Shown here piece by piece: positions 11,525 through 64,000 of a stretch of DNA of 64,000 bases. Every line of letters starts with the position of its first letter. Within the stretch, counting starts at the first letter, position 1. The notes beneath the pieces are model-generated. The model ran no database searches. It saw nothing but the letters and a program-made list of their open reading frames with translations, and was not told the origin of the DNA. The stretch spans positions 1,550,001 through 1,614,000 of the forward strand of contig NZ_CP114283.1 in the NCBI RefSeq assembly GCF_027107535.1, given 5' to 3'. The position numbers were made by a program, and so were the translations under genes. This stretch comes from Streptomyces aurantiacus. GTDB taxonomy: Bacteria > Actinomycetota > Actinomycetes > Streptomycetales > Streptomycetaceae.

Positions 11525-11554
11525 CCCGCGGACACGCGTACACAGGGAGCGAGC

Positions 11555-12058: not shown

Positions 12059-12090
12059 GTTGACGGGATGCCCGACCCCAGGCCCACGCC

Positions 12091-13425: not shown

Positions 13426-13466
13426 AATTCGCCGCCGCAACCCGGCTCACTGATCACGAGGGGCAC

Positions 13467-14117: not shown

Positions 14118-14187
14118 AGCTCAGAAGACTCTCAAGCTTCACAGGACTCATGGACGGCACATCTACCTCGTCCATAGAGTCGCGATC

Positions 14188-14970: not shown

Positions 14971-14974
14971 CGGC

Positions 14975-15030
14975 CGCCGCCGTGTCCAGCGGCTGCCGAT
15001 GACACCGCCGTGTCTAGCGGCTGCCGGTGA
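14975..15030. repeat. 28-bp tandem repeat spanning the sortase stop codon
   Basis: Two adjacent 28-bp copies (14975-15002 and 15003-15030) differ at only a few bases. The second contains the last codons and TAG stop of the sortase gene; in the first the stop has become TGG. The sortase C-terminus has thus been duplicated into the gap before the convergent TSUP gene. Confidence 0.75.
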
Positions 15031-15634: not shown

Positions 15635-15680
15635 GTCAGCCCCCTCTCTCGGGTCGTTCGGTCACGGACTTCTCGGTGTT

Positions 15681-15707
15681 CCGGGTGTTCCGGGTGTTCC
15701 GGGTGTT
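15681..15707. repeat. 9-bp tandem repeat upstream of the sortase
   Basis: Three exact copies of CCGGGTGTT follow a partial fourth. They lie in the 247-nt spacer between the secreted protein gene and the sortase gene. The spacer (15635-15881) holds no convincing gene. Confidence 0.8.
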
Positions 15708-15881
15708 CTGGAAGTTCTTGGCACCCACGGCGTTTCCGGTGCTCGTGGAGCGCCCGGTTCCCGCGGCTCCCGGACCGGCCGGATCGGCTCTGTGGGTCCC
15801 GCGTCCCCCTCCGGGCCGCGAGGGGCGTCGGGTCCGGAGGGGGAGGGGACGGCGGTACCGGTGGACAGCGGAGGGTGTCCG

Positions 15882-16406
15882 TCAGATCCCGTCGCCTCTC
15901 GCCCGGCGATGCAGGAGCCAGGTACCGCCCGCGGCGGCGACGGCCAGGGCCGCCACTCCCGCCGCGGTCTGCACGGGGTCGGGACCGAGTGCGCCGCCGA
16001 CCCCCGTCTTCACACTTCCTCGCGGGTGGACCTGCTGTCCGCGCTCCTGGGTGGACGTGAGGGTGACCACCAGGTCGCTCGTCATCCGCAAGCCGCTCGA
16101 ACAGCGCGCGACGATCTCGTACGTGCCCGGCTGGGCGGACGGCGGCACGGTGAACTGCCCGACCGCGTGACCCTCGTGCGCGCTGGGCATCAGCGTGAAG
16201 TCACCCGCGCCGACGGCCCCGGCGTCACCCGACACCGCGTCGCTCGCCCCGCACGCCGCCGTGTTCACCGTGACCTCGGTGCCGGGCGCGACGGAGGCCG
16301 GGTACAACTCGATGGACCCCGCGCCGACACCGTGAGCGGGCGCCGCACCGAGGCCCGCCGCGACGACGGCGAGCGCGGTACCGGTCAGCAGACGGGCTGT
16401 GCGCAT
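15882..16406 (-). CDS. Secreted, C-terminally membrane-anchored protein (candidate sortase substrate)
   Basis: A 174-residue protein. It has a Sec signal peptide (LLTGTALAVVAAGLGAAPAHG, cleavage near residue 25), then an Ig/MG-like beta domain (IELYPASVAPGTEVTVNTAA and PSAQPGTYEIVARC) with a cysteine pair. The C-terminal hydrophobic helix (TAAGVAALAVAAAGGTWLLH) ends in RRARGDGI. This signal-domain-TM-basic tail layout is that of a sortase substrate, but the sorting motif is degenerate (SVKTG rather than LPxTG or LAxTG). Start is ATG at 16406 with GGAGGAG 9 nt upstream. It lies upstream of the class F sortase on the same strand. The function is not recognised beyond the layout. Confidence 0.75.
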   Translation of the reverse strand: MRTARLLTGTALAVVAAGLGAAPAHGVGAGSIELYPASVAPGTEVTVNTAACGASDAVSGDAGAVGAGDFTLMPSAHEGHAVGQFTVPPSAQPGTYEIVARCSSGLRMTSDLVVTLTSTQERGQQVHPRGSVKTGVGGALGPDPVQTAAGVAALAVAAAGGTWLLHRRARGDGI

Positions 16407-16513
16407 CGTGCTCGCTCCTCCGAGGGGGCGCGGCCCGCGGCACCTGCGAGTGCCGCTGCGTCGGTCACGCCCCTGCCCTACCGAGGTAAGTGGCAGTCGA
16501 GGCCCCACGCCTC

Positions 16514-16538
16514 CTGATGGCACATCAGAAACGATGTG
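16514..16538. promoter_or_regulatory. Overlapping perfect inverted repeats (candidate operator)
   Basis: CTGATG-GCA-CATCAG (16514-16528) is a perfect 15-bp palindrome. It overlaps a second perfect inverted repeat CACATC-n6-GATGTG (16521-16538). They lie 108-132 nt upstream of the secreted protein gene, in a 313-nt gene-free region shared with the FMN reductase promoter. Such nested dyads suggest a protein binding site; the binder is unknown. Confidence 0.5.
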
Positions 16539-16683
16539 AACGGGTGTCAGGCGAGGGAGCCCCGTGTCGCATCCCGCGGCGTTTCGGCTGGTCACCGGCG
16601 TGTCGTCGGCGCGTGGGCGAAAAGAACCCGAAGGGAGTGGACAGCGCGTGTGAACGGGTGACCGGCTCGCCGCGCCGCACGCT

Positions 16684-16713
16684 TGACCTCAACTTTGGTC
16701 GAGGTATGAGGCT
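16684..16713 (+). promoter_or_regulatory. SoxR-type operator within an elongated promoter
   Basis: The dyad ACCTCAAC-TTTG-GTCGAGGT (16686-16705; arms match at 7 of 8) overlaps a -35 TTGACC (16684-16689). A weak -10 (GAGGCT, 16708-16713) follows at 18-19 bp spacing, the stretched spacing typical of MerR-family promoters. The dyad matches the SoxR box (CCTCAA...TTGAGG). Transcription would begin at or next to the ATG at 16720, implying a leaderless mRNA. In S. coelicolor an NADPH-dependent FMN reductase, SCO2478, is a known SoxR target (recalled). Confidence 0.75.
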
Positions 16714-16719
16714 GGGCTC

Positions 16720-17343
16720 ATGAACCCCACCACCGACGTATCCGTCCCCCCTCCCGTCCAGCACCCCGCGCCCCTCAAGGTCGCCGTCATCGTCGGCAGC
16801 AACCGGGAGGGCCGCTTCGGCCCCGTGGTCGCGGACTGGCTGCTGGGCCGCTTCCTCGACCGGGCCGACCTCTCGGTCGACGTCGTCGACACCGCCGACC
16901 TGCGCCTGCCGACGGCCCTGTCCTACTCCCCGTCCCCGGAGGTGGCCTCAGAGCTGGCGAAGGTCACCCCCAGGCTGGCCGAGGCGGACGCCTTCGTCGT
17001 CCTGACCCCCGAGTACAACCACTCCTTCCCCGCCTCGCTCAAGGCCCTCATCGACTGGCACTACGAGGAGTGGCGCGCCAAGCCCGTCGGCTTCGTCTCG
17101 TACGGCGGTGTCTCGGGCGGCCTGCGCGCCGTCGAGCAGCTCCGCCAGGTCTTCGCCGAGCTGCACGCCGTCACCGTCCGCGACACGGTGTCCTTCCACA
17201 ACGCGGGCGCGTCCTTCGACGACCGGGGCCGGCACAAGGACCCCGCGGCGCCGGACGCCGCCGCGAAGGTGATGCTGGACCAGCTGGCGTGGTGGGCGTC
17301 GGTACTGAAGGAGGCCAAGGCGGTTCGCCCGTACGGGAGTTGA
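16720..17343 (+). CDS. NADPH-dependent FMN reductase (SoxR regulon type)
   Basis: A 207-residue flavodoxin-like protein that reduces FMN or quinones with NAD(P)H. Residues 20-40 hold the phosphate-binding loop (VAVIVGSNREGRFGPVVADW), and LTPEYNHSFPASLKALIDW is the family signature. A further VSYGGVSGG loop contacts flavin. The SoxR-like operator directly upstream implies induction by redox-cycling compounds such as the organism's own quinone antibiotics. The operator leaves almost no leader, so translation is probably leaderless from ATG 16720. Confidence 0.9.
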   Translation: MNPTTDVSVPPPVQHPAPLKVAVIVGSNREGRFGPVVADWLLGRFLDRADLSVDVVDTADLRLPTALSYSPSPEVASELAKVTPRLAEADAFVVLTPEYNHSFPASLKALIDWHYEEWRAKPVGFVSYGGVSGGLRAVEQLRQVFAELHAVTVRDTVSFHNAGASFDDRGRHKDPAAPDAAAKVMLDQLAWWASVLKEAKAVRPYGS

Positions 17344-17371
17344 GGAGACCGGGCGGAGACTCGGCCCGGAC

Positions 17372-18292
17372 TCAGGCTCCGGCCCCGTGGTCGGTGAGGG
17401 CCTCGGCCACCGCCCGGCGCCCCACCGCCGCGAGGACGGGATTGGTGACCCGGTAGTGGTGATCCGCCACCAGACCGAAGTGCAGGGCCCAGCCCCGCCC
17501 GCGGGCCCAGGTCGCGTCGTCGACCTCGGCCGCCTCACGGAACAGGGGGCGGGTCCCGGAGGTGAACACGGCCCAGGCGGCGAGTACGTCGGCCGCGGGG
17601 TCGCCGGTACCGAGGCCCCCGAAGTCGATGACCGCGCTGAGCCGGCCTTCCCGGGCCAGCAGATTGCCCGGCAGGAGGTCGCCGTGCAGCCAGACGGGCG
17701 CGCCGGCCCATTGCGGAAGCCGCAGGGCGTCCTCCCAGACGGCCGCCACGGTGTCCCCGTCCACCGTGCCGTCCGCGCTCAGGTCGCGGATCGCCGCGCG
17801 CATCTCGTCGTCGTCGGTGAGCGGACCGCCGCGCCACGACGGGGGCCCGCCGACCGCGTCGACCTTCCGCAGCGCCGCGACGAATCGGCCCAGCTCGACC
17901 GCCGCGTCCGCGAGACCGGCCCGGCCGCCGAGGGGCGCGTCGTGGACGGTGTCGCCGTCCAGCCAGCGGAACACGCCCCACGGCAGCGCGTACCCCTGTC
18001 CGGGTGCCCCCTTCGCGAGCGGCACGGGAACGGCCAGCGGGAGATGCGGAGCGAGCCGTGGCAGCCACCGCTGTTCCTTGTCCACCTCCCGCGCCCCGCG
18101 GGGCAGCCGCGGCAGCCGTACGACCATGTCGTCGCCGAGCCGGTACATGGCGTTCTCCGTCCCGGCGGACACCACCTGCTTCACCGGCAGCCCGGCCCAC
18201 TCGGGGAACTGCTCCGCGACCAGCCGCCCGACGAGCGCCTCGTCGATGTCGAGCTCGTCAGGGTGCATCTTCGGGTTCGGGCCGGACGGCAT
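17372..18292 (-). CDS. Aminoglycoside phosphotransferase-fold kinase
   Basis: A 306-residue APH/choline kinase-fold protein. It shows the Brenner catalytic loop WLHGDLLPGNLL and the metal-binding VIDFGGLGTGDPAAD. The N-lobe contains AGTENAMYRLGDDMVVRLPR. The family includes antibiotic kinases but mostly small-molecule kinases of unknown substrate, so resistance should not be assumed. Start is ATG at 18292 with CGGAG 5 nt upstream; the ORF open to 18379 lacks such a site. Single gene between the convergent FMN reductase and the VOC gene. Confidence 0.85.
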   Translation of the reverse strand: MPSGPNPKMHPDELDIDEALVGRLVAEQFPEWAGLPVKQVVSAGTENAMYRLGDDMVVRLPRLPRGAREVDKEQRWLPRLAPHLPLAVPVPLAKGAPGQGYALPWGVFRWLDGDTVHDAPLGGRAGLADAAVELGRFVAALRKVDAVGGPPSWRGGPLTDDDEMRAAIRDLSADGTVDGDTVAAVWEDALRLPQWAGAPVWLHGDLLPGNLLAREGRLSAVIDFGGLGTGDPAADVLAAWAVFTSGTRPLFREAAEVDDATWARGRGWALHFGLVADHHYRVTNPVLAAVGRRAVAEALTDHGAGA

Positions 18293-51112: not shown

Positions 51113-52471
51113 CTACTCGGGGTGCCTTGCCGGTTGCACGATGCCGCGTACGACGCCGAGGTCCACCAGGTCCTGTGGGCGGATGCGGAGCTGGTCCGCG
51201 GTGGCGCGCACCTCCTGCGGCGGTCGCTTGAGGATGGCGGCCGCCAGCTCCGGTGCGATGACGGAGAAGTAGCTGTCCGGCGTGGCCCACGTGTTGTCCG
51301 GTGCCGCGAGGGCCAGCGCGCCGCCCGAGCCGCCCTCGCCGATCAGCAACGTGGTGACGGGGGTCTCCGCGGCCGCCACGGCCCCGAACAGGTCGGCGAT
51401 GGCCGCGCCGGCGCCCTGCCGCTCCGCCTCCGCGTCGTTGGCGGCCCCCGGAGTGTCCACCAGCGTCAGGACGGGGATGCGGAGCCGGTCCGCGAGCCGG
51501 ATCAGCCGGGCGGCGGTGCGGTAGCCGGCGGGGCGGGTCGCGGTGCCCGTCTGGGCGGCGTAGGCGACCACCCGGCCGTCCTCCGCCCGTACGCCGACAC
51601 CGCAGAGCATGCCGTCGTCGGTGCCGCCGCAGCGGTCGCCGCTGATCGGAGCACGCTCGGCGAAGCAGACGTCCAAGTAGGCCTGTGCGCGGGGTCGTTG
51701 GGGGGACCGCGCGTTGTGCACCGCTTCCCAGCCGGTGTCGGGGAGTGCGGTGCCGGCCAGGGCCGGGGGAGGGGGGACGGGGTCGGTCGACGGGTGGCTC
51801 AGCAGGCGCAGCCAGAGCGCCAGCGTCCCCGGCAGCTCTTGCTCGGGCACCACCGCGTCGACCGCTCCTGCCGCCAGTTGCGCCTGCGCGGTGTACGCCG
51901 CCGGGTCCGCGTCGGGCGGGCGGACCCGCGAGCCCGCGAAACCCACCTGTGCTCCGGGCAGCGCGAGGATCACGTCGGCTCCCGCGCCCAGGGTGGCCCA
52001 GCCACCGCCCGTCGTCGGGTCGCGCAGGACGGCGACCTGGGACAGGCGGGCCGCCCGGGTGAGCGCCGACTGACGTGCCACGCGCTGGAGTTGGACCAGG
52101 GCGCGCATGCCCTCCTGCATACGGCTGCCGCCCGTCGCGACGAGGGAGACGACCGGCAGGCGGTGTGCACGCGCGTACGTGTACGCGGCCTCCAGGCGGT
52201 CGCCCGTCCGCTCGCCCAGCGAGCCGCCGAGGAAGCCGAACTCGAAGGAGATCAGCACGGCGGGAGTCGTACCGAGGGTGCCGGTACCGCAGACGACGGA
52301 CTCCTCCTCGCCGGTGCGGTCCGCGGCCCGGGCGCGCGAGGCGTCGTACCCCTGCCAGGACAGCGGGCCGTCCGGCCGGTGCACGCCCGAGGGGACGGGC
52401 AGCTCGGTGAAGTCGGCGGTGAGGAGACCGATCGCCTCTCGGGCCGTGAACCGCCGGGACGCCTCAGTCAT
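51113..52471 (-). CDS. Fused acyl-CoA carboxyltransferase (AccD/AccA-type) of the malonate locus
   Basis: A 452-residue crotonase-fold protein with both halves of a biotin-dependent carboxyltransferase. The AccD-like half (PAVLISFEFGFLGGSLGE, VSLVATGGSRMQEGMRALVQ) is followed by the AccA-like half (VLTLVDTPGAANDAEAERQG, LIGEGGSGGALALAAPD). The start ATG lies 8 nt inside the end of matB, so the genes are coupled. Malonate clusters normally need a malonyl-CoA decarboxylase (MatA), which is absent; this protein could fill that step or use malonyl-CoA for carboxyl transfer (inference). The AccD zinc finger is missing. Confidence 0.85.
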   Translation of the reverse strand: MTEASRRFTAREAIGLLTADFTELPVPSGVHRPDGPLSWQGYDASRARAADRTGEEESVVCGTGTLGTTPAVLISFEFGFLGGSLGERTGDRLEAAYTYARAHRLPVVSLVATGGSRMQEGMRALVQLQRVARQSALTRAARLSQVAVLRDPTTGGGWATLGAGADVILALPGAQVGFAGSRVRPPDADPAAYTAQAQLAAGAVDAVVPEQELPGTLALWLRLLSHPSTDPVPPPPALAGTALPDTGWEAVHNARSPQRPRAQAYLDVCFAERAPISGDRCGGTDDGMLCGVGVRAEDGRVVAYAAQTGTATRPAGYRTAARLIRLADRLRIPVLTLVDTPGAANDAEAERQGAGAAIADLFGAVAAAETPVTTLLIGEGGSGGALALAAPDNTWATPDSYFSVIAPELAAAILKRPPQEVRATADQLRIRPQDLVDLGVVRGIVQPARHPE

Positions 52472-53960
52472 GAGTCAGCGCACGCTTCATGATCTTGCCC
52501 ATGTCGTTGCGGGGCAGGGCGCCGAGACAATGGACGACCCGGGGCCGTTTGTGGGGCGCGAGACGGACTGCCACGTGGTCGGCCAACTCCGCGAGCCGCG
52601 GTGGGTTCTCGGCGTCGGCGGGCACGATCCACGCCACGATCCGCTCCCCGAGGTCGGGGTCCGGCTCGCCCGTGACCGCGGCCTCCCGCACGCCGGGGTG
52701 TTCCAGGAGGGCGTTCTCGATCTCGCCCGCCCCGATCTTGTATCCGCCGCTCTTGATGAGGTCGGTGGCCTTGCGGCCGACGATGCGCACGTACCCGTCG
52801 GGGTCGCGCACCGCCATGTCGCCGGTGCGGAACCAGCCGTCCTCGGTGAAGGCCGCCGCCGTCGCGTCGGGCCGGTTCAGGTACTCGGTGAAGAGGTTCG
52901 GCCCGCGGACCTGGATCTCGCCCACGGTCTCCCCGTCGTACGCCGCCAGGGCCGTCGTTCCGTCCTCCTCCGTCAGCCGCAGTTCGACGCCGGGCAGCGG
53001 GACGCCGACCGTGCCGGCCCGGGGCTCGCCGTCCGCGCGGACGCTGGTGTTCATCAGCGTCTCCGTCATCCCGTACCGCTCGATGACCCGCCGGCCCGTC
53101 GCCTCCGCGATCCGCTCGTGGTCGTGCACCGGGAGGGCCGCCGATCCCGACACGAGCAGCCGCGCCCGCGCCAGCGCCTTCGCGAGAGCCGGGTCGTCGG
53201 GCAGGGTCTCGGCGATCCGGTGGTACATGGTCGGGACCCCGAACAGCATCGTGGCGCCCGCGCTCAACTCCCTTGTCACGCCCGTGACGTCGAAACGTCC
53301 CAGATGCCGTACGGATCCGCCGCGGCGCAACGGGCCGAGGATGCCCAGGATCAGTCCGTGCACATGGAAGAGGGGAAGGCCGTGTACGAGGACGTCGTCG
53401 CCGGTCCACCGCCAGGCGTCCGCGAGGGCGTCCAGGGTGGTGGCGACGGCCCGGCGGGGGATGACGGCACCCTTCGGAGGGCCGGTGGTGCCGGAGGTGT
53501 AGACGACGAGGGCGGGGGCCTCCGGGGAGAGGCCGGAGGCGAGGGCCTCGGCGGCGGGGGCTGCCGTCGCCGGTGCGGCACGTACGTCGACGTCCACGTC
53601 GACGCGCTCCAACGCCGAGAGGGCGGGCGGCAGTTGGTCGCCCGCCGATGCGAGCACCAGCGTCGGCGCGCTGTCCGCCACGATGTGTCCCAGCTCGCTC
53701 CCGCCCGACTTCGGGTTGAGCGGCACGGCGGGGACACCGGCCAGCAGCGCGGCGACCACGCCGACCGCCGTCTCCAGGGTGGGAGTGGCCCAGACGGCGA
53801 TCCGGCCCGCCTCCCCGATACGGGCGGCCAGCGGGGCGGCGGCCGTCGCGAGTTCGCCGTAGGTCAGGGAGCGGTCGCCGAAGCGCAGGGCCGACCGGTG
53901 CGCGGCGGTGCCGTCCGGGTCCGCCAGTGCCTCGGTCAGGGCCGGGAAGAGAGGGGACAC
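52464..53960 (-). CDS. matB: Malonyl/methylmalonyl-CoA synthetase
   Basis: A 498-residue ANL-superfamily enzyme making malonyl-CoA from malonate, ATP and CoA. The sequence closely matches S. coelicolor MatB (SCO2444) as I recall it. Motifs: VVYTSGTTGPPKGAVI (P-loop), VIERYGMTETLMNTS, GDMAVRDPDGYVRIVGR, and the acyl-adenylate Lys in RNDMGKIMKRAL. Start is GTG 53960 (VSPLFPAL) with AAGGAG 9 nt upstream; the longer frame to 54017 lacks such a site. Between the MatC-like transporter (139 nt upstream) and the carboxyltransferase (8-nt overlap). It also supplies extender units for polyketides (known use). Confidence 0.96.
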   Translation of the reverse strand: MSPLFPALTEALADPDGTAAHRSALRFGDRSLTYGELATAAAPLAARIGEAGRIAVWATPTLETAVGVVAALLAGVPAVPLNPKSGGSELGHIVADSAPTLVLASAGDQLPPALSALERVDVDVDVRAAPATAAPAAEALASGLSPEAPALVVYTSGTTGPPKGAVIPRRAVATTLDALADAWRWTGDDVLVHGLPLFHVHGLILGILGPLRRGGSVRHLGRFDVTGVTRELSAGATMLFGVPTMYHRIAETLPDDPALAKALARARLLVSGSAALPVHDHERIAEATGRRVIERYGMTETLMNTSVRADGEPRAGTVGVPLPGVELRLTEEDGTTALAAYDGETVGEIQVRGPNLFTEYLNRPDATAAAFTEDGWFRTGDMAVRDPDGYVRIVGRKATDLIKSGGYKIGAGEIENALLEHPGVREAAVTGEPDPDLGERIVAWIVPADAENPPRLAELADHVAVRLAPHKRPRVVHCLGALPRNDMGKIMKRALTHD

Positions 53961-54099
53961 GCGAGCGTACTCCTTGGTCGTCGGTCGTGTTGGTCGGTCG
54001 TCGGCTGTCAGTTTCACTGGTCGTCGGGCGGCGGCGGGCGCCCGGGGCGGGGTGTCGGGGCGGGGCGCCGTGCCGGGGGCCGGGCCGCGGGCGTCGGTG

Positions 54100-55470
54100 T
54101 CACCCCCAGCCGGGTACCACCAGGGCGAGCCACACCACGGCCGGGACCACGGCCACCACGACCCCTCCGTACATCATCAGCTGCCGGAAGAAGCGCTCCC
54201 GGTCGACGTCGGGCGCCGCCGCCAGGACCAGGGCCCCGTTCGTCGAGAACGGGCTCACGTCCACCACGGTCGCCGACACCGCGAGCGCCGCCACCATGCC
54301 GACCGCCCCGATCTCACCCTGCGCGAGGAACGGCACGGCCAGCGGGATCAGCGCCCCCATGATGCCGACCGAGGAGGCGAACGCGGAGACCAGCGCGCCG
54401 ATGTAGCAGAGCAGCACGGCGGAGAGCAGGGGGACGCCGATGTCGCTGACCCCCTCACCCGCCCAGTCGATCGTGCCCATCTGGTCGAGGACGCCGACGT
54501 ACGTCAGCACACCGCAGATCAGCAGGACCGTCGGCCAGGCGATCTGGGTGACGGCGTTGCGGCTGTCCTCGGGCCAGCAGGTGCTGAGCAGGACGGCGAG
54601 GGTGATGGAGGTGAGCCCGGCGTCCAGGTCGAAGGCGAGTACGGCGACGACGAGGGCGACGAGCGCGGCGAGGGTGGCCGTGCGGGCCGGATTGAGACGG
54701 GAGGTGTCCTCGTCGGCCTCCTCGGACGCGCCCTCCCCGTGCTCCCGCTCGCGCGCGTTCTCATCGGTGCCGGTGCCGGTGCCGGAACCAGCTCGGGCGC
54801 CGGCGCTGTTTGCGACCTTGCCCGCCTTCCCCGATGTCGTGGCCGCCTCCACGAGGACGCCGTCACCCCTCAGCTTCAGCCCTCCGAACAGGACGAACAC
54901 CACCCCCGCGATCACGAGATTGACGATGAGCGAGGCGAGGAAGAGGGCGACCTCGTTGCCGGGCAGGCCCTCGCGCTCGACGATGCCGTTGACGATCGAC
55001 CCGTAGATGCTGATGGGGGAGAAGCCGCCGCCCTGTGCGCCGTGCACCACCATGGCGCCCATCAGCAGTGGGCTGATGGAGTACCGCGCGGCGAAGCTCA
55101 GGGCGATCGGCGCCACGATGGCGACGGCGGCCGGGCTGACCGCACCGATCGCGGTCAACGCGCCGGTCAGTACGAACATCACCCACGGGATCAGCACCAC
55201 CCGTCCGCGCACGAGCCGGATGGAGGCGTGCACCAGCCAGTCGGTCGTGCCGTTGGCGCGGGCGATCGCGAACAGGTACGTCACGCCGACGAGCACGACG
55301 AAGAGGTCCCCGGGGAAACCGGCGAAGATCTTGTCGGCGTCGAGGTCCGCGACGAGCTCGCCGACTCCGAAGGCTGCGGCGAAGGCGAGGGCGCCCATGT
55401 TGATGGAGCGGGTGGTGGCGATCACGAACACCACGACGAGCACGAGGATCGATATCAGTTCGGCGGACAT
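54100..55470 (-). CDS. MatC-like malonate/dicarboxylate transporter
   Basis: A 456-residue ion transporter-superfamily permease. About 11 hydrophobic helices are split by a charged cytoplasmic loop (about residues 205-260, rich in Gly/Thr/Glu with a GTGTGT repeat). The N-terminus SAELISILVLVVVFVIATTR and helix pairs such as AVSPAAVAIVAPIALSFAAR fit the MatC/SLC13 group; DVSPFSTNGALVLAAAPD is the C-terminal signature. It would bring in malonate for MatB. First gene of the operon matC-matB-carboxyltransferase. ATG 55470 is chosen because helix 1 begins there. Confidence 0.85.
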   Translation of the reverse strand: MSAELISILVLVVVFVIATTRSINMGALAFAAAFGVGELVADLDADKIFAGFPGDLFVVLVGVTYLFAIARANGTTDWLVHASIRLVRGRVVLIPWVMFVLTGALTAIGAVSPAAVAIVAPIALSFAARYSISPLLMGAMVVHGAQGGGFSPISIYGSIVNGIVEREGLPGNEVALFLASLIVNLVIAGVVFVLFGGLKLRGDGVLVEAATTSGKAGKVANSAGARAGSGTGTGTDENAREREHGEGASEEADEDTSRLNPARTATLAALVALVVAVLAFDLDAGLTSITLAVLLSTCWPEDSRNAVTQIAWPTVLLICGVLTYVGVLDQMGTIDWAGEGVSDIGVPLLSAVLLCYIGALVSAFASSVGIMGALIPLAVPFLAQGEIGAVGMVAALAVSATVVDVSPFSTNGALVLAAAPDVDRERFFRQLMMYGGVVVAVVPAVVWLALVVPGWG

Positions 55471-55549
55471 GCGGGCTCCCGTCTTTGGGTCCCTTGTCGA
55501 GCGGGCGGGCGGGCGGATGGGCAGGCGGTGGGGACGGACAGGAGTGGCT

Positions 55550-55685
55550 GAGTGGCCGAGCCACTCGGAGCCGGGTCGTGGATTGGCCAAGTGGCTGAAC
55601 CACATTGGGTCGCAGGGGTGGAGAGCGTCAAGGGATCGGGCGTAAATTGGCTCAGCCACTTGTCCACTGGGCCACGTGTCCACTG
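55550..55685. promoter_or_regulatory. Array of GntR-type palindromes between matC and its regulator
   Basis: Three dyads of pattern GTGGC-n3-GCCAC occur. 55550-55566: GAGTGGC-CGA-GCCACTC, perfect. 55589-55605: AAGTGGC-TGA-ACCACAT. 55645-55661: AATTGGC-TCA-GCCACTT. In addition TGTCCACTG is repeated at 55661-55669 and 55677-55685, 16 bp apart. FadR-subfamily repressors bind short dyads with a 3-nt centre, so the divergent MatR-like protein is the obvious binder. Confidence 0.65.
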
Positions 55686-55767
55686 ATCGGACGGCTCGGG
55701 CGTCCCCGGTGTTACGCTGCGGCGGCGGGGGACGAACACCGCGCAAGAGGGGACAAGGGGGACGGGC

Positions 55768-56490
55768 ATGAGCGACGCGCTGCGCCCGATGGCGGCCAAG
55801 CCCCGCCTGTACGAGCAGGTCCTCGACCGGCTGCGCAGTTACGCGGCCGAGGGCGGCCTGGGCGCGGGCGACCGGCTCCCGCCCGAGCGCGACCTGGCGG
55901 CCCGACTCGGCGTCAGCCGCGCCTCCGTGAAGCAGGCCATAGTGGTCCTGGAGGTCCAGGGTCTGGTCGAGGTCCGCCACGGCGGCGGCACCTACCTGGT
56001 CCGCGACACCCTCGACGCCGAACCGGTGGAGCAGCTCGTCGAGCGCCGCCGCAGGCTGCCCGACGTGCTCGACGCCCGCGAGGCCCTGGAGACCAAGCTC
56101 GCCGAACTGGCCGCCGAGCGGCGCACCGACGAGGACGTGGCGGCCATGGACTCGGCCCTCGTCCGGATGCAGGCCGAGATCGCGGAGGGCGGGCACGGTG
56201 TGGAGGGCGACCGCCTCTTCCACGCGGCGGTCACGGCGGCGGCCCACAGCACCATCCTCGCCGAGTTCATGCGTTCCATCGCCGACCAGATCACCGAGAG
56301 CCGCCACGAGTCGCTGCGCCAGCCGAGCCGCCCCACCCGCTCCCTGACACAGCACCGCGCGATCTTCGACGCGATCGTCGCCCGGCAGCCGGGCCGGGCC
56401 GCCGCCGCGATGCGCAGGCACGTACAGACGGTGGCGAAGGTACGGCTGCTGGCCTGGGACCCGGACGGGAACGACGAACAGGGCGTGTGA
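55768..56490 (+). CDS. GntR/FadR-family regulator of the malonate locus (MatR-like)
   Basis: A 240-residue repressor. The winged helix (residues 12-75) has YEQVLDRLRSYAAEGGLGAG, LPPERDLAARLGVSRASVKQ and GLVEVRHGGGTYL. The C-terminal FCD domain has VLDAREALETKLAEL and metal-site residues (FHAAVTAAAHSTILAE; QHRAIFDAIVARQP), suited to bind a small carboxylate such as malonate. It is divergent from matC with operator-like dyads between. Start is ATG 55768. The peptidase E-like gene follows after 23 nt. Confidence 0.9.
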   Translation: MSDALRPMAAKPRLYEQVLDRLRSYAAEGGLGAGDRLPPERDLAARLGVSRASVKQAIVVLEVQGLVEVRHGGGTYLVRDTLDAEPVEQLVERRRRLPDVLDAREALETKLAELAAERRTDEDVAAMDSALVRMQAEIAEGGHGVEGDRLFHAAVTAAAHSTILAEFMRSIADQITESRHESLRQPSRPTRSLTQHRAIFDAIVARQPGRAAAAMRRHVQTVAKVRLLAWDPDGNDEQGV

Positions 56491-56513: not shown

Positions 56514-57320
56514 ATGAGCCTGCACACCCCCGCGCCGACCACGTCCCCGCCGCCGGGCCCGTCCCCGTCGGCCGGGCGGTCCCCGACGGGCGGGCGCGAG
56601 CCGACCGTGCTCGCCACCTCCGGCGGTCACCGTGCCGGAGGCCGGACCATGGTGATGTTCGACGCCCTCGTGCACCACGCGGTCGAGCTGTCCGGTGCCC
56701 ACGGCCGCCGCCCCCGCGTGATGTACGTGGGCACGGCGATAGGCGACGCGGAACACTTCACGGCACGTATGGGCGAGGCCGCCCGCGTGGCGGGTTTCGA
56801 CCTCACGCCCCTCCAGCTCTTCCCGATGCCCAACCTCGAGGACATCGAGGGCAGCGTCCTCGACCAGGACGTCGTCTGGGTCATGGGCGGCTCGGTGGCC
56901 AACCTCCTCGCGGTCTGGCGGGTCCACGGCCTCGACGACATCTTCCGCAGGGCCTGGCACTCCGGGGTGGTCCTCAGCGGTGTCAGCGCGGGCTCGATCT
57001 GCTGGTTCCAGGGCGGCACCACGGACTCCTTCGGCCCCGAACTGCGGCCCGTGACCAATGCGTTGGGCCTTCTCCCCTACGGCAACGGAGTCCACTACGA
57101 CACCGATGCGGGCCGTCGCCCCCTGATCCACGACCTCGTGGCCGACGGCACCCTCCCCACCACCCACTGCACGGACGACGGGGTGGGCCTCGTCTACCGC
57201 GGCACCGACCTCGTCGAGGCCGTCACCGAGATCCCGGGCAAGGGCGCGTACATCGTGACCCGCGACGGCGACGCGGCCACGGAGGAACGCGTGGAGCCAC
57301 GCCGCCTGCCGGGGATCTAG
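56514..57320 (+). CDS. Peptidase E / cyanophycinase-like S51 hydrolase
   Basis: A 268-residue protein. The nucleophile elbow is VVLSGVSAGSICWFQGG with Ser in SAGS, and VVWVMGGSVANLLAVW is the preceding conserved strand. The N-terminal 30 residues are Pro/Ser-rich. The family cleaves dipeptides with N-terminal Asp, or cyanophycin; the substrate here is unknown. It probably shares a transcript with the GntR gene. The stop TAG (57318-57320) interlocks with the stop of the convergent MerR-PP2C gene in CTAG. Confidence 0.85.
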   Translation: MSLHTPAPTTSPPPGPSPSAGRSPTGGREPTVLATSGGHRAGGRTMVMFDALVHHAVELSGAHGRRPRVMYVGTAIGDAEHFTARMGEAARVAGFDLTPLQLFPMPNLEDIEGSVLDQDVVWVMGGSVANLLAVWRVHGLDDIFRRAWHSGVVLSGVSAGSICWFQGGTTDSFGPELRPVTNALGLLPYGNGVHYDTDAGRRPLIHDLVADGTLPTTHCTDDGVGLVYRGTDLVEAVTEIPGKGAYIVTRDGDAATEERVEPRRLPGI

Positions 57321-58399
57321 CGCGCGCCTTCCGCCGGCCCCGCTCCCACCACGTCCGCCACCACGCAGCTCACGTTGTCCGGGCCGCCGGAGTCGTTCGC
57401 CGCCGCCACCAGGGCCCGTACTGCCTCGGCCGGTTCGCAGGTGGCGGACAGGAGGTGCCCGACGGTGTCCTCGGGCACGACCGCGGACAGACCGTCGGAG
57501 CACAGGAGATAGCGGTCGCCGGCGCGGGCGTCGTGGAGGCGCAGGTCGGGGGCCGTACCGGGGCCGTCGCCCGGCAACGCCTTGAGGAGAAGGGCGCGTT
57601 GGGGGTGGGCGGTGGCCTCCTCCGGTGTCAGGCGGCCCTCGTCGAGCATCGACTGGACCATCGTGTGGTCGTGGGTGATCCGGAAGAGCTCACCGTCGCG
57701 GAGCAGATAGGCGCGGGAGTCCCCGATGTGGACCAGGGCCAGTTGGGAGCCGGTCCACACCATCGCGGTGAGGGTCGTGCCGATGTCGTCCGTCGGGCCG
57801 GCCACCTCCCGGACGGCCGCGGTGGCGCCCTGGACCGCGTCCTCCAGGAGGTTGAGGACGCTGCCGGCGGGGAGCGGCTCGTCGTCCAGGAACTTCAGGG
57901 CCTCGACGGCGGCGACGCTCGCGGGGGCGCCCCCGGATCCGAAGCCGTCCGCGACGGCCAGGACGCGGGTGCCCGCGTACGCCGTGTCCTGGTTGACGGG
58001 GCGGACGAGGCCGGTGTCGGAGAGTGCGGCATATCGGAGTTCCAGCATGGTGGTCTCCCTGCTCGGGGTGGATCTCGTGAGGTGGTCGACGAGGAAGGCC
58101 GCCAGGTCACGGCGGGACGCGGTCTCCGCCTCGACCCGCGACCAGAAGGCGCGGATCTCCCGCGCTGCGGCCTGAGGACCGAGTGCGCGGACCGCGCGGA
58201 TCTCGGCCAGCGGCATGCCCAGCCGACGCAGCCACGCCACCAGGCGCGCCTGCTCCAGCTGCCCGGACGCGTAGTAGCGGTAGCCCGTCTCCGGGTCCAC
58301 CCGCGCGGGGCGCAGCAGCTCCAGCTCGTCGTACAGCCGAAGTGCCTTCGGTGAGAGCCGGCACGCCTTCGAGAAGGCTCCGATCGTCAGCATCTCCAT
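57317..58399 (-). CDS. MerR-type DNA-binding domain fused to a PP2C protein phosphatase
   Basis: A 360-residue fusion. Residues 1-110 are a MerR-family N-terminus (LTIGAFSKACRLSPKALRLY, LLRPARVDPETGYRYY) with the dimerisation helix. Residues 120-350 are a PP2C phosphatase: the start TGLVRPVNQDTAYA, metal-binding LAVADGFGSGG, LVHIGDSRAYLLRDGEL, LLCSDGLSAVV and GGPDNVSCVVADV. All metal ligands are present. It could be a Ser/Thr phosphatase that binds DNA, or a regulator that senses phosphorylation. The ATG at 58399 is used; MLTIG two codons later is possible. Monocistronic. Confidence 0.88.
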   Translation of the reverse strand: MEMLTIGAFSKACRLSPKALRLYDELELLRPARVDPETGYRYYASGQLEQARLVAWLRRLGMPLAEIRAVRALGPQAAAREIRAFWSRVEAETASRRDLAAFLVDHLTRSTPSRETTMLELRYAALSDTGLVRPVNQDTAYAGTRVLAVADGFGSGGAPASVAAVEALKFLDDEPLPAGSVLNLLEDAVQGATAAVREVAGPTDDIGTTLTAMVWTGSQLALVHIGDSRAYLLRDGELFRITHDHTMVQSMLDEGRLTPEEATAHPQRALLLKALPGDGPGTAPDLRLHDARAGDRYLLCSDGLSAVVPEDTVGHLLSATCEPAEAVRALVAAANDSGGPDNVSCVVADVVGAGPAEGAR

Positions 58400-59465: not shown

Positions 59466-60074
59466 TCACGGCCCGGCGACGGCCACCCGCTGAAGCAGCC
59501 CCCAGGTGAACTCCGCCACGCAGTCCCGCCGTACGTCCGAACCGTCCGGCGCCGTGAACGCCAGCCCCCACCGCGTCGGCGCCGTCCCCTCCATCGGCCG
59601 CGCCGGTGCGAAGGCGCGGGCGGCCTCGTCGACCGTGCAGGACCAGGGCGTCAGGTCCTCCAGCGTGCGCGGCGCGGGGGAGGGGGCGTCCGGGGCGCGG
59701 ACCAGCCACTCGTTCCAGGCGACGCCGCCCGGGGCCACCAGCACCTCGAAGCGCAGGTCCGGCCAGAGGGGCACCGGCCACAGGAACGCCTCGCAGGACA
59801 GGTCGCCGATCCGCCGGGGCACCACCGACTCCGCCTCGCCCAGGATCGAGCGGTACCGGGAGACCGCGCCCCGGCTCCGCGGCGCGTGCCGCATGGCCTG
59901 CCAACGACGGTTGGCCTCACGCATCTGCGCCACGGAGACGCCCAGTGCGTGACGGGCGTCCTCCACGAGGTCGGGGTTGTGGTCGGCCATGCGGCGCAGC
60001 AGGACGAGCTGGAAGTCGAGCGGGGTGAACGGGCCAGGGCTAGCCGGTCGCTTCGCGGGAGGCATGCGTCCCAT
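59466..60074 (-). CDS. Uncharacterised protein, last gene of the right-edge operon
   Basis: A 202-residue cytosolic protein I do not recognise. It opens with a basic Pro-rich stretch, then LDFQLVLLRRMADHNPDLVE, WQAMRHAP and a tryptophan-rich C-terminal half (WPVPLWPDLRFEVLVAPG, WNEWLVRAP, EFTWGLLQRV). No signal peptide or membrane segment. It overlaps the end of the FkbM gene by 35 nt (60040-60074), or by 26 nt if the start is the ATG at 60065, so it is probably co-translated. Role unknown. Confidence 0.65.
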   Translation of the reverse strand: MGRMPPAKRPASPGPFTPLDFQLVLLRRMADHNPDLVEDARHALGVSVAQMREANRRWQAMRHAPRSRGAVSRYRSILGEAESVVPRRIGDLSCEAFLWPVPLWPDLRFEVLVAPGGVAWNEWLVRAPDAPSPAPRTLEDLTPWSCTVDEAARAFAPARPMEGTAPTRWGLAFTAPDGSDVRRDCVAEFTWGLLQRVAVAGP

Positions 60075-60873
60075 CGTGTCGTACCCGCTGTGCGTGCTGC
60101 TCGCCCGGGCGCCGGCCGTCCGGGAGGAACAGCACCGAGTTCACGTACCGGACGTACCCGGAGCCCCGGAAGGGCCGCACCCGGCGCAGCAGGCCCTGCG
60201 CGGCCACGTGCGAGGTACGCGCCTGGTGGGCCTCCAGGTCGAAGGAGGACAGCGGCACCCAGGTGTCGCCGGGCAGCACCCAGCCCTCGTATCCCCGCTC
60301 GGCGAGATGGGACACCACCGTGTCGACGGGCTGGATGCGCGCCTCCAGCTCGACGAACAGGGCCGGGCGGTCGCGGGTGAGCAGGGTTTTTGCCCCGTGC
60401 AGCACCGCCAGCTCGTTGCCGTCCACATCGATCTTGACGAAGCCGACGTCGTGGAGGTTCAGGCTGTCCAGGGTCAGGCAGGGGACGTCCACGGACTGGG
60501 CGTGGATGTCCCGCCGGACGAGGGACGAGACGCCCCGGTCGCCCTTGTCGCCGGCCGGCAGCCACAGGTGGGCCGTGCCGGACCGGTCGCTCGCGGCCGC
60601 GTGGACGACCCGGACGTTCCCGGGGGTCGTGGCGGCGAGCAGCCGGGCCAGGTGCGGGACCGGCTCGACCGTCACCACGCGGCGTGCCCGGTCCGACAGG
60701 CGGCGTGTCCAGGGGCCGTACCAGCCGCCCACGTCCACCGCGGTGCCGCAGTCGGGCGGGCAGAGGTCGCCGAGCCGGGCCAGCTCGGGCTCGAAGCGCG
60801 GATAGACGAAGCGGGCGGCCGCGGCGACCAGGCGCACCGGCACGAGGGGGGCCAGACGGGCTGCCAGGGTCAT
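60040..60873 (-). CDS. FkbM-family SAM-dependent methyltransferase
   Basis: A 277-residue class I methyltransferase of the FkbM group, which O-methylates sugars or natural products. SAM-binding motif I is AVDVGGWYGPWTRRL, motif II VVTVEPVPHLARLL, and the hallmark segment is VGFVKIDVDGNELAVLHGAK. The C-terminal 40 residues are basic. Its ATG overlaps the stop of the Trm112-like gene (ATGA). It belongs to the six-gene overlapping operon, which suggests methylation of a hydroxyl on the operon's product. Confidence 0.88.
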   Translation of the reverse strand: MTLAARLAPLVPVRLVAAAARFVYPRFEPELARLGDLCPPDCGTAVDVGGWYGPWTRRLSDRARRVVTVEPVPHLARLLAATTPGNVRVVHAAASDRSGTAHLWLPAGDKGDRGVSSLVRRDIHAQSVDVPCLTLDSLNLHDVGFVKIDVDGNELAVLHGAKTLLTRDRPALFVELEARIQPVDTVVSHLAERGYEGWVLPGDTWVPLSSFDLEAHQARTSHVAAQGLLRRVRPFRGSGYVRYVNSVLFLPDGRRPGEQHAQRVRHDGTHASREATG

Positions 60874-61169
60874 GAGGTCATCATCCCGGGGCTCTGGGGG
60901 CCGCGGGCGGAGCCGTTGACGTCGCCGTCCCCGTTGATGCGCAGCAGCAGTGCCTCGTGTTCGGTGTCCGTCACCTGCTCTCCGGAGGACGGGAGCAGTT
61001 GAGGGATGCCGTCCACGATCGGGTAACGGCGGCGCAGACGCGGGTTGTAGAGGGCGCCCTCAGTGCTCTCGGCGCCCTCAGTGCTCACCGTCTCCTTCTC
61101 GAGGAGATGCAGCGGCCCCTTGTCCAGCGGGCACGCCAGTATCCTCAGCAGCGGGTCGTCCGGATTCAT
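60870..61169 (-). CDS. Trm112-like protein
   Basis: A 99-residue protein with the Trm112 N-terminus DDPLLRILACPLDKGPLHLL and YPIVDGIPQLLP. Trm112 proteins act as stabilising partners of methyltransferases and also occur alone in actinobacteria. Only one zinc-type Cys (ACP) is present where CPxCxxxL would be expected. An STEGA repeat and a Gly-rich tail are added. The start ATG 61169 (GGGAG upstream) lies 92 nt inside the upstream transporter gene. Neighbouring methyltransferases on both sides make a partner role plausible. Confidence 0.78.
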   Translation of the reverse strand: MNPDDPLLRILACPLDKGPLHLLEKETVSTEGAESTEGALYNPRLRRRYPIVDGIPQLLPSSGEQVTDTEHEALLLRINGDGDVNGSARGPQSPGMMTS

Positions 61170-62088
61170 CACTGATCAACTCCCTTTTGGGTTGCGGGGG
61201 TTGCGGCTTGGCCGGTGGGTCGTGCTTGGGCATCGCGAGGAGCACGGAGACCGCCAGCGCCGTACCGCCGATGCGCAGCGCCAGCCGCAGCGGGTCCTCC
61301 GGCAGCGCCTCGCCGAACGCGAGGGTGCCGAGCACCGCCGTGAACAGACACGTCACCGTCGTGCAGACCGGAACGATCAGCGAGGCCCGGCAGCGCTGCA
61401 GCGCCGCCTGCGACATGATCAGGCCGAACACGCCGGTGAAGAGCAGGAGATACGGGTACGGGGAGCGCAGCAGAGCGAGCACCGCGCCGCCGAACCCGCT
61501 CGCGGTGAGATGGCTCGACACGCCCTTGATGGCCAGTGAGCTGACCCCGTACAGCAGGCCCACCGCCACGCCGTACTCGACGCCCGTCGTCGGCATGCGG
61601 TGCCGGTGGCGGGCGCGGCGCTCGGCCGATCCGTACAGCCAGACACCCAGCGCGAGCGACGGGACGCAGACGAGCAGGATCAGCGGGGCGGGGGCGCTGT
61701 GGCTGACCGTGTCGGAGCCCTCCTTCAGGGAGAGCACCACCATGAGGAGCGCCAGGAGGATCGCGCCGAGCGCGTACCGCTCGCGGCCCGAGGTCTCCTC
61801 GCCGAGCAGCACGGACGAGAGCAGGACGAGGATGACGAGGCCGGAGACGAAGATGCCCTGCGCGGCGGCGATCGGCAGGGTGCGGTAGACGACGAGCTGC
61901 GCGCCGAAGCCCGAGGCCAGGGAGAGGGACCCGCCGATCCACAACGGGCTGCCGAGGACCAGCCGCAGGAGGCGGGCGGGCTGTCGCACACTCACCTCGG
62001 GCAGTGCCGCCAACGCCCGTTTCTCCAGCACGAATCCGGCGCTGTACAACAGGTTCGCCAGCAGGGCCGCGGCCACTCCCCACCACAT
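61078..62088 (-). CDS. EamA/DMT-family transporter
   Basis: A 336-residue membrane protein with about ten hydrophobic helices in two EamA-like halves (ALLANLLYSAGFVLEKRALA; VAVGLLYGVSSLAIKGVSSH; VPVCTTVTCLFTAVLGTLAF). It would export a small molecule or metabolite. The last helix ends near 61225. The remaining tail (about 50 residues, Pro/Ala/Gly-rich) reads through the start of the Trm112-like gene, a 92-nt same-strand overlap in another frame. Its ATG lies 3 nt after the methyltransferase stop. Confidence 0.85.
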   Translation of the reverse strand: MWWGVAAALLANLLYSAGFVLEKRALAALPEVSVRQPARLLRLVLGSPLWIGGSLSLASGFGAQLVVYRTLPIAAAQGIFVSGLVILVLLSSVLLGEETSGRERYALGAILLALLMVVLSLKEGSDTVSHSAPAPLILLVCVPSLALGVWLYGSAERRARHRHRMPTTGVEYGVAVGLLYGVSSLAIKGVSSHLTASGFGGAVLALLRSPYPYLLLFTGVFGLIMSQAALQRCRASLIVPVCTTVTCLFTAVLGTLAFGEALPEDPLRLALRIGGTALAVSVLLAMPKHDPPAKPQPPQPKRELISDESGRPAAEDTGVPAGQGAAASPREGDGEH

Positions 62089-62091
62089 GGT

Positions 62092-62832
62092 CTACGTCCT
62101 TCGCGCGTGCAGCAGAAGGATCGAGGACATCGACGGGGCGCGGCACGCCAGCCGGTCCAGTGGGCGCAGCGGCCGCGGCACGCCGTGGAAGGGCGCGCCC
62201 CGCAGCGCCGCGACCTCGAAGCCCGACGCGCTCACGAACTCCCGCAGTGCGCGGGCCGTGTAGAGCCGCAGATGGCCCACCACCTCCGAGCCGGGGCGGC
62301 CGTGGATCGCGCGCAGGCTCACCTCGGAGAAGACGGGCTGGACACCGGCGAGGAGCAGGGCGCGGTTGTACCAGGCGGCCAGATTCGGGGTGGAGAGCAT
62401 GAGATGACCTCCCGGGCGCAGGATCCGGTGGATCTCGTCGAGTGCCGCGTCCGGGTCGACGAGGTGCTCGATCACCTCGCTGAACAGGACGGCGTCGGCG
62501 GAGGCGGACCTGAACGGCAGCCCGCCGTCGGTGAGTTCACCGCGTACCGCGTACGGGAGATGGGCGTGGGCGCGTCTGAGGGCGTCCTGGGACCAGTCGA
62601 CGCCGATGATGCGGTGGCCGGCGAGGAGCGGTGCGGCCGTCGCGGCCGCGGTGCCGTCGCCGCAGCCGATGTCGATGACCGTGCGCGGACCGGACGTTGC
62701 CGGGCCGAGCGCGTCGGCGAGCATCCGGGCCTGGCGCAGGCTCCGGGGCGTGCCGGAGGCGACCGGGACGGCCGGATCCTCGTAGAAGTCCCGCAGGCCG
62801 TGCGGGGGCCGGCGGGGCGGGGCCGTGGTCAT
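62092..62832 (-). CDS. Class I SAM-dependent methyltransferase
   Basis: A 246-residue Methyltransf_11/UbiE-like enzyme. Motif I is TVIDIGCGDGTAAATAA, motif II GVDWSQDALRRA, and post-motif ADAVLFSEVIEHLVDPDAAL with LRPGGHLMLSTPN. The C-terminal region has a hydrophobic helix. The substrate is unknown. Its start overlaps the stop of the condensation-like gene (ATGA). Confidence 0.87.
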   Translation of the reverse strand: MTTAPPRRPPHGLRDFYEDPAVPVASGTPRSLRQARMLADALGPATSGPRTVIDIGCGDGTAAATAAPLLAGHRIIGVDWSQDALRRAHAHLPYAVRGELTDGGLPFRSASADAVLFSEVIEHLVDPDAALDEIHRILRPGGHLMLSTPNLAAWYNRALLLAGVQPVFSEVSLRAIHGRPGSEVVGHLRLYTARALREFVSASGFEVAALRGAPFHGVPRPLRPLDRLACRAPSMSSILLLHARRT

Positions 62833-64000
62833 GGGGCACTCTCCGTGGCGTGTTCCGTCGCGTGCAGATAGTGCTCGAAGAGGTCACGCAGGTGGCAGCC
62901 GTCACCGTGGCTCAGCAGGGCGCGGGACCAGCGCAGCGCCACGTGCAGGCGGCCCGCCGTGGAGGCCGTCGTCACCGTCAGGCCCCGCGGCATGCGGGCC
63001 GGCGCCGAGAACCAGACGGCGTGCGCCCGCCCCGCCTCCTCGCCGAAGTCGAGGGCGTACGGAACGCGGCCGATGTTGCTGAGCAGGGTGGTGGACGTCC
63101 AGGGCCCGGCGGCTCTCCGCAGCCCTCTGGTGAACGCGGCCCGCCAGGCCACCGGGACCACCGGAGCCGTCAAGAGGGAAGCCCCGTGGCCCAGTTGCGG
63201 CCGCGGCTGGGCCTTGAGCGCGCGGGTGCGGTCCGCCGTACGACACAGCAGCGCGGTCATGTCCGAGGCGTCCAGCTCCTCGGGGGCGAAGGAGACCTCC
63301 ACCAGACGGGTGCCGTTGCCGATCGGCATGTCCGTGCCGCGCGGGCGGTCGTCGACCGGCATCGTGATGCGCAGCGGGCGCGGGCGGGCGCCGTGCTCCC
63401 GGTTCCAGTGGGCGATCATCAGGGCGGTGGCGACCATGAGCTGGTCGTTCACGGTGTACGGGGAGCCCTTGGGCCGGTGCGGGACGTTGAACTCGGCGAC
63501 GAGCAGCCCGTTTCCGGGGGACGGCTCGGGGGCGCCGTGCGCCACCCGGGCGGGCGGCGCCCAGGTGGAGGGGGTGTCGACGGCGCTCGGGGTCTCGGCC
63601 GTCGTGCGCTTCGGGGGCGCCGCCGGGGAGTTGTCGCGGCCGCCGTACAGCTCCGCCGCGGTCGCCAGGACCCGCAGACACGCCGGACCGTCCAGGGCGG
63701 TGTGGTTGATGGTGAGGAACAGGACCGTGTCGTCGGCCTGCGGATCGCGGACGACCTCCAGGCGGATCGGCGGCGACGCCGAGAGCGGCGGGGCGTCGCG
63801 CAGTGCCCGGTCCCGGGCGTGCTTCAGCGCGTCCCGGTCCGGCTCCGGGAACAGCACGGCCTCCACGTCGGCGTCGGGGGTGAGCTCCCACTCGTACCGC
63901 CGCCCGTACCAGGGGCGCGCCGCCTCGCGCATCAGGATCCGGGGGTGGCGGTGCAGGGCCCCGGCGAACGCCCTGCGCAGGCGGTCCGGGTCGAGGCGCC
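62829..64000 (-). CDS. Condensation-domain-like acyltransferase (5' end beyond the window)
   Basis: Partial: 390 codons visible, and the frame continues open to the right edge (LDPDRLRRAFAGALHRHPRI precedes an internal ATG at 63932), so the true start is outside. The fold is that of the chloramphenicol acetyltransferase/condensation superfamily, like PapA or NRPS C domains. The active site reads LTINHTALDGPACLRVL: HxxxDG is kept but the preceding His of HHxxxDG is Asn. A downstream DFGEEAGRAH may correspond to the DFGWG motif. It would make an ester or amide bond. First visible gene of the six-gene operon. Confidence 0.8.
   Translation of the reverse strand, partial: RLDPDRLRRAFAGALHRHPRILMREAARPWYGRRYEWELTPDADVEAVLFPEPDRDALKHARDRALRDAPPLSASPPIRLEVVRDPQADDTVLFLTINHTALDGPACLRVLATAAELYGGRDNSPAAPPKRTTAETPSAVDTPSTWAPPARVAHGAPEPSPGNGLLVAEFNVPHRPKGSPYTVNDQLMVATALMIAHWNREHGARPRPLRITMPVDDRPRGTDMPIGNGTRLVEVSFAPEELDASDMTALLCRTADRTRALKAQPRPQLGHGASLLTAPVVPVAWRAAFTRGLRRAAGPWTSTTLLSNIGRVPYALDFGEEAGRAHAVWFSAPARMPRGLTVTTASTAGRLHVALRWSRALLSHGDGCHLRDLFEHYLHATEHATESAP

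Follow-up and report, generated by a model that had tools for sequence, protein, structure and literature searches.

The right end of the 64,000-nucleotide window analysed here (G000:C2:1550001-1614000 of the 9.9-Mb Streptomyces aurantiacus genome) carries six open reading frames (ORFs), at 59466-64000, which an earlier sequence-only reading had taken for a biosynthetic operon making and exporting an acylated, doubly methylated small molecule. When the block is followed past the window's edge, we read it, with moderate confidence, as a module of the cell envelope whose product would be a glycolipid or lipoglycan bearing acyl, methyl and probably arabinofuranosyl groups, rather than as a small-molecule cluster. 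On this view, and at a similar level of confidence, all of the six genes but one appear to be the 3' part of a nine-gene module: the PgfA/LmcA-type protein PgfA, a GT4 glycosyltransferase, an MtrP-like methyltransferase (MT1), the AftD-type glycosyltransferase, an acyltransferase (AT), a second methyltransferase (MT2), a DMT/EamA-like membrane protein, a Trm112-like protein and an FkbM-family methyltransferase. The observations behind this reading are gene content, domains, synteny, the joint inheritance of AftD with AT, what flanks the block and a cluster of the decaprenyl-phospho-arabinose (DPA) type elsewhere in the genome.

The block is conserved across Streptomyces, as seen both from AT and from AftD. 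A scan with AT (251 stretches, 207 relatives) left 80 loci, all of Streptomyces and several of them cut by contig ends, the closest named one being that of Streptomyces sp. BV286 with an AT 99% identical. Besides AT, present in all 80 by construction as the query, these loci held MT2 (80), the DMT gene and Trm112 (79 each), FkbM and the sixth gene, encoding a hypothetical 202-aa protein (78 each), AftD (79), GT4 and MT1 (77 each), a PucR-type regulator (74) and PgfA (73). The set independent of AT comprised 80 AftD stretches and four others, without those of G164, G273 and G262; of these 84, the 71 with at least 6.5 kb after AftD were counted, presence meaning at least 30 bits. AT and MT2 were found in all 71, Trm112 in 70, the DMT gene in 69, FkbM in 58 and the sixth gene in 48, with all six together in 43. 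PF11847, the AftD family, occurs in 85 of 200 Streptomyces genomes, and AT alone as query (E 1e-15) retrieved exactly these 85 and none of the other 115, a co-occurrence which is uncorrected for kinship and which linkage alone explains in part. Across the Streptomyces genomes AftD and AT either both occur or are both missing; the genes that can be missing are FkbM and, occasionally, PgfA or the DMT gene. The DMT gene was not found in the otherwise near-complete modules L077, L217 and L224; the survey suggests that it is replaceable. Two genomes, G190 and G143, carry two AftD modules each (L172/L210 and L188/L223), the second more diverged and with no match to FkbM or to the sixth gene. All ten genes are present at locus L040 of S. 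lincolnensis, and S. avermitilis has the AT protein. An Embleya replicon carries every block gene except the sixth.

The description of a tightly packed run on one strand is borne out: all six ORFs lie on the minus strand, separated by overlaps or a 3-nt gap. From the coordinates, AT and MT2 overlap by 4 nt, MT2 and the DMT gene are 3 nt apart, the DMT gene and Trm112 overlap by 92 or 95 nt, Trm112 and FkbM by 4 nt, and FkbM and the sixth gene by 35 nt. The reported spacing (+3 nt, or overlaps of 4 to 92 nt) is thus right for this genome, but the long overlap of the DMT gene with Trm112 is a local feature, the median in 78 relatives being 4 nt. The operon runs past the right edge, as had been supposed: AT starts at 64151, overlaps AftD by 4 nt and has four co-oriented genes upstream of it (AftD, MT1, GT4 and PgfA). 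As a whole unit the six genes were therefore mis-bounded, being cut by the window edge on one side and including a non-specific sixth gene on the other. In the relatives the median gaps from GT4 through FkbM range from -10 to +3 nt and the PgfA-GT4 gap has a median of 225 nt, given which PgfA may be on a separate transcript. A promoter and terminator scan found none, a result of little weight for Streptomyces.

AftD scores 750 bits with PF11847 (cut-off 26) and 56.5 bits with PF24607, the AftD carbohydrate-binding module (cut-off 27), and is homologous over residues 29-1372 of its 1503 to the mycobacterial alpha-(1->3)-arabinofuranosyltransferase AftD (PDB 6wbx/6w98, E about 1e-141), with which it shares the GT-C and carbohydrate-binding parts. 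It differs from the mycobacterial protein in residing in a genome where Emb was not found and in being accompanied by AT and MT2 at every one of the 71 Streptomyces loci. An acidic triplet, (D/E)T(K/R), occurs near the first transmembrane segment of all 139 distinct AftD ORFs compared, the three-residue pattern being sought in about 110 residues and in those ORFs whose profile match starts in the first 60 positions; its acidic residue may be catalytic. In the open-licence literature, no paper retrieved with AftD, Streptomyces and arabinofuranosyltransferase has a title on this locus.

For AT the label of condensation-like acyltransferase stands as far as a fold match on a weak model goes, and no Pfam cut-off is reached. 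The scores are below cut-off in all families matched (PF00668 12.6 against 30.6, PF16911 13.2 against 30, TIGR02946 36.2 against 310), and its profile gave nothing below E 0.1 among PDB sequences. The AlphaFold model (pLDDT 59) matched over its length condensation domains, WS/DGAT and SgcC5, with 247 PDB matches at E <= 0.001; the best has E 1.3e-13 and TM 0.48, and rmsd exceeds 9 A in the 50 listed. H150 and D154 are invariant in 32 of 32 aligned Streptomyces proteins. AT resembles the stand-alone condensation-fold acyltransferases PapA, WS/DGAT and SgcC5 in fold and in its catalytic-type His and Asp, and departs from them in lying under the Pfam and NCBIfam cut-offs and in the first His of the motif. 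Where HHxxxDG is what we take to be the motif of this fold, the Streptomyces proteins have NHxxxDG (32/32); the six relatives from family f15 described below all have HHxxxDG.

The acyl- and methyl-transfer enzymes named in the sequence-only reading are indeed present, and its idea of a methyltransferase partner for Trm112 is supported by the survey. FkbM was not found in 13 of the 71 AftD loci, all of which (10 plus 3) keep Trm112 and MT2; MT2 is for this reason a likelier Trm112 partner than FkbM, and MT1 is a further possible one. Like the bacterial Trm112 proteins YcaR and SCO3027 the present one has the PF03966 domain, and it differs from them in sharing an operon with three methyltransferase genes. 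The part of a 2017 review dealing with bacterial Trm112 called its function unknown (PMC5372719); the module offers a concrete partner candidate, MT2. MT2, FkbM and Trm112 score above their family cut-offs (Table 1); the FkbM protein has no PDB match at E 0.01. MT1 is called MtrP-like because it is a class I methyltransferase whose gene lies near one for a PgfA/LmcA-type protein. The PgfA-type protein is well above the NF053601 cut-off and also matches LmcA (7n3v, E 8e-5); by analogy, lipid trafficking or a lipoglycan function is proposed for it. No paper on DUF3068 or PgfA together with Streptomyces was found in the open-licence literature. Of the EamA transporter assignment, what holds is a membrane protein (six hydrophobic segments in a simple hydropathy scan) with weak family matches, neither of which reaches its cut-off. 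As it sits beside AftD and PgfA, this DMT-like protein may be read at least as well as a flippase for a lipid-linked sugar as a small-molecule exporter.

Outside Streptomycetaceae a smaller core is found. PF11847 occurs in 50 of 98 genomes of the class; 58 of its 66 places were taken (those of the present genome, second copies and fragments being left out), of which 55 regions, from 46 genomes and 12 families and several of them cut by contig ends, lie outside Streptomycetaceae. In 20 of the 55 regions, spread over nine families, the AftD stretch also holds GT4, MT1 and PgfA; two or more of the three occur in 30. No MT2, Trm112 or sixth gene was found in any of the 55 at the thresholds used and with profiles built from Streptomyces, which distant relatives may escape; a DMT relative occurs in three, AT in six and FkbM in two, the AT and FkbM cases all belonging to family f15. 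The AT relatives there (6 of 17 f15 regions) score 41-76 bits and are found no more than about 2 kb downstream of AftD; in one region, L126, the frame that follows AT is FkbM. Emb (PF04602) was present in all three genomes tried of family f4 and was not found in the present genome or in G020, G046, G075 and G054. Since the AftD core occurs in genomes without Emb, it is independent of Emb-made arabinan.

The sugar added by AftD is, judging from sequence, probably arabinofuranosyl. A DprE1 query from an Emb-bearing genome found a full-length 45% relative in this genome, and a complete-looking DPA-type cluster (G000:C2:8595337-8600495, L231:6337-11495) carries GtrA-UbiA-PAP2-DprE1-DprE2, presumably the set that DPA synthesis needs, plus a BrkB-like membrane protein. 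The same type of cluster is present in the AftD-bearing genomes G045 and G056 and also in the AftD-less G067. DprE1 relatives (E 1e-60) were found in 107 of the 200 genomes of the genus, in a survey scoring eight candidates per genome in which misses are possible: 57 genomes have AftD and DprE1, 28 AftD only, 50 DprE1 only and 65 neither. The two co-occur above expectation (odds ratio 2.65, p 0.001, uncorrected for kinship). DPA is nevertheless not strictly tied to AftD, since 28 of the 85 AftD-bearing genomes have no DprE1 match and 50 of the 115 AftD-less ones do. It is accordingly possible, if rather doubtful, that the same envelope module has an AftD using another polyprenyl-phosphate sugar, e.g. 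mannose or ribose, to modify a lipid or wall polymer. The 28 genomes speak for such a donor, as do the AftD-bearing G020, G046 and G075, of other families, in which neither Emb nor a full-length DprE1 relative was found (best partial match E 1e-12 to 1e-15); against it stand the DPA-type cluster of this genome and the co-occurrence just given, with the possible misses of DprE1. Near the module, at window positions 75822-88126, are parts of a sugar ABC transporter, two GH43 proteins and an alpha-L-arabinofuranosidase; they perhaps serve the use of plant arabinan and are there by coincidence.

Every catalytic step in the following scheme, like its substrate, its sugar and the sequence of events, we infer from these data. 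GT4 would build the sugar head on a lipid in the cytosol, the MtrP-like methyltransferase, MT2 with Trm112 and usually FkbM would methylate the sugar-lipid, and AT would attach an acyl group, the donor being either acyl-coenzyme A (CoA) or acyl carrier protein (ACP). The DMT protein may assist the crossing of the membrane by the lipid-linked product or a donor. On the outside, AftD would add a branch of furanosyl sugar, for which D-arabinofuranose from DPA is the likeliest candidate, and PgfA would pass the lipid product onward. By analogy with the loci below, what the Streptomyces module probably does is to acylate, methylate and export a glycolipid or lipoglycan of the envelope, with furanosylation on the outer side.

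The closest known counterpart is the partly characterised Corynebacterineae locus tmaT-lmcA-mmpA-...-mtrP (NCgl2759-2765), which likewise combines a PgfA/LmcA-type protein, a class I methyltransferase and an acyltransferase and has an envelope role; we take Rv0224c-Rv0228 to be its mycobacterial counterpart. The Streptomyces operon differs in containing AftD, in the addition of MT2, the DMT gene, Trm112 and FkbM, and in its Emb-less genome; its AT is a soluble condensation-fold enzyme, whereas theirs is the membrane acetyltransferase TmaT. The accounts of the C. glutamicum locus, in the parts that concern these genes, describe tmaT, mtrP and mmpA as genes without which trehalose monocorynomycolate is not properly acetylated and transported (PMC8698533) and lmcA as acting in the synthesis of lipomannan and lipoarabinomannan (LAM) (PMC8698533, PMC8972800); PgfA of M. 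smegmatis is tied, in the relevant part of its description, to transport of trehalose monomycolate (PMC9678360). We therefore probably deal with a variant form of a known envelope system, with core genes in common with the mycobacterial cell wall, and not with a new antibiotic-type pathway. PgfA, MtrP and AftD have been studied as parts of a mycolate and arabinan envelope, and the same core in an Emb-less genome raises the question of what its original role was. A tentative reading, which we hold to be possible at most, is that an Emb-less Streptomyces makes a surface acylated, O-methylated D-arabinofuranosyl glycolipid by means of AftD, a cytosolic AT and PgfA export; in that case the mycobacterial trehalose-mycolate/LAM locus would have specialised later from an older actinobacterial sugar-lipid system, with TmaT and AT as independent solutions to acylation before export.

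Several points weigh against the envelope glycolipid. Some of them were met above, namely the imperfect match between AftD and DprE1, the lack of a detectable Emb in this genome and the poor model of AT. Fewer than two of GT4, MT1 and PgfA are found in 25 of the 55 regions outside Streptomycetaceae, some of these being contig-cut. The coryne locus is seen by its authors, in the part of their paper devoted to it, as serving two separate pathways (PMC8698533), and PgfA and LmcA are argued, in the corresponding part of another, to differ in function (PMC9678360); for both reasons known function is not simply transferable. In the portion of PMC3196553 dealing with Streptomyces, S. hygroscopicus and S. 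coelicolor have glycerol-phosphate lipoteichoic acid, S. verticillus has no macroamphiphile and no Streptomyces lipoglycan is reported.

Lipoteichoic and teichoic acids in Streptomyces (treated in the same portion of PMC3196553), together with the carbohydrate-binding modules on AftD, could also be taken to mean that the methyl, acyl and furanosyl groups are put onto a polymer of the wall, either teichoic acid or a glycan bound to peptidoglycan, and that the module builds no glycolipid. We consider this unlikely: relatives of PgfA and LmcA are tied to lipids or lipoglycans in the pertinent parts of PMC9678360 and PMC8972800, and domain scans recognised no teichoic-acid gene in the block. The small acylated, doubly methylated metabolite first proposed as product of the six genes, for which the likeness of the AT fold to non-ribosomal peptide synthetase (NRPS) condensation domains and SgcC5, the patchy presence in the genus and a MatB-type AMP-ligase 5.4 kb downstream can be cited, is highly improbable and was rejected as a free-standing cluster, AT not being found without AftD in 200 genomes at E 1e-15 and the 5' half of the block consisting of relatives of envelope-locus genes, with no NRPS, polyketide synthase (PKS) or carrier among the ORFs read.

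The boundaries of the module are given by IclR and the sixth gene (Table 1), which was rejected as a module member. Relatives of the 202-aa protein occur in 178 of the 200 Streptomyces genomes, and in 14 of 16 AftD-less genomes, picked from its listed matches and examined over 1.5-kb flanks, an IclR match is no more than 400 bp away from it; an ATP-grasp-like gene is present in 10 of the 16. As IclR and this gene adjoin in most of these AftD-less genomes and IclR lies just beyond PucR here, the gene is a flank and the block sits between the two. Among 67 AftD-bearing loci of the genus that extend 1.2 kb or more past PucR, IclR is at most 1.5 kb from PucR in 24; elsewhere it is farther away, cut by the locus end or outside the stretch. 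The clean arrangement of IclR, block and sixth gene, for which an exact scarless insertion was considered, is seen here and in some of the other genomes and is not universal. The structure model of the 202-aa protein (pLDDT 83) has one fold match at E <= 0.001, with a TM of 0.27-0.33 that is not useful, and its profile matched none of the solved sequences (best E 0.87).

Table 1. Genes of the block and its flanks. Window positions, counted on beyond 64000, equal L008 positions + 56999; start codons of MT1 and GT4 were picked by eye and their coordinates are approximate. Cut-offs follow "vs".
Feature	Window position (L008 position)	Strand	Remarks
Hypothetical 202-aa protein, flanking gene	59466-60074	-	no domain match
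FkbM-family methyltransferase, accessory	60040-60873	-	PF05050 57.9 bits vs 22.7; TIGR01444 72.4 bits vs 37.7
Trm112-like small protein	60870-61169 (ATG) or 60870-61172 (GTG)	-	PF03966 47.2 bits vs 22
DMT/EamA-like membrane protein, candidate flippase or exporter	61078-62088	-	below cut-off: PF05653 24.6 vs 26.2; NCBIfam NF038012 (DMT_1) 32.6 vs 50
MT2, class I S-adenosylmethionine methyltransferase, candidate Trm112 partner	62092-62832	-	PF13489 79.6 bits, above cut-off; PF08241
AT, putative condensation/CAT-fold acyltransferase	62829-64151 (5830-7152)	-	start beyond window edge (64000)
AftD-type GT-C, 1503 aa	64148-68659 (7149-11660)	-	PF11847, PF24607, PDB 6wbx/6w98
MtrP-like MT1, class I methyltransferase	~68650-69417 (~11651-12418)	-	PF08241 60.8 bits
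GT4 glycosyltransferase	~69414-70565 (~12415-13566)	-	PF13692 93.1 bits
PgfA/LmcA-type protein	71070-72047 (14071-15048)	-	NF053601 322.9 bits vs 160
PucR-type regulator, divergent	72527-73768 (15528-16769)	+	PF13556
IclR gene, flanking	73966-74772 (16967-17773)	+	PF01614 163 bits

The genes around the block were read for other biosynthetic functions. To the right, where the earlier reading proposed to look for glycosyltransferases, CoA ligases or carriers, there are glycosyltransferases (GT4 and the GT-C AftD) but no carrier: no NRPS, PKS, carrier or scaffold enzyme was seen among the coding-like ORFs up to 31 kb from the edge (by eye, filtered by codon-position GC, ten of them Pfam-scanned), in agreement with the earlier remark that none is visible. 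On the left side, six Pfam-scanned ORFs include no scaffold enzyme or carrier protein and a single AMP-ligase, the MatB-type one mentioned above, which stands outside the module within a malonate-use group. This group, at window positions 52464-56490, comprises the AMP-ligase, a MatC carrier and a GntR regulator, and by eye relatives of GntR and MatC also adjoin the gene for the 202-aa protein in the AftD-less L244. Between this group and the block, at 57317-58399, is a gene for one protein with both MerR DNA-binding and PP2C phosphatase domains, a relative of which is present in 36 of the 80 Streptomyces loci.

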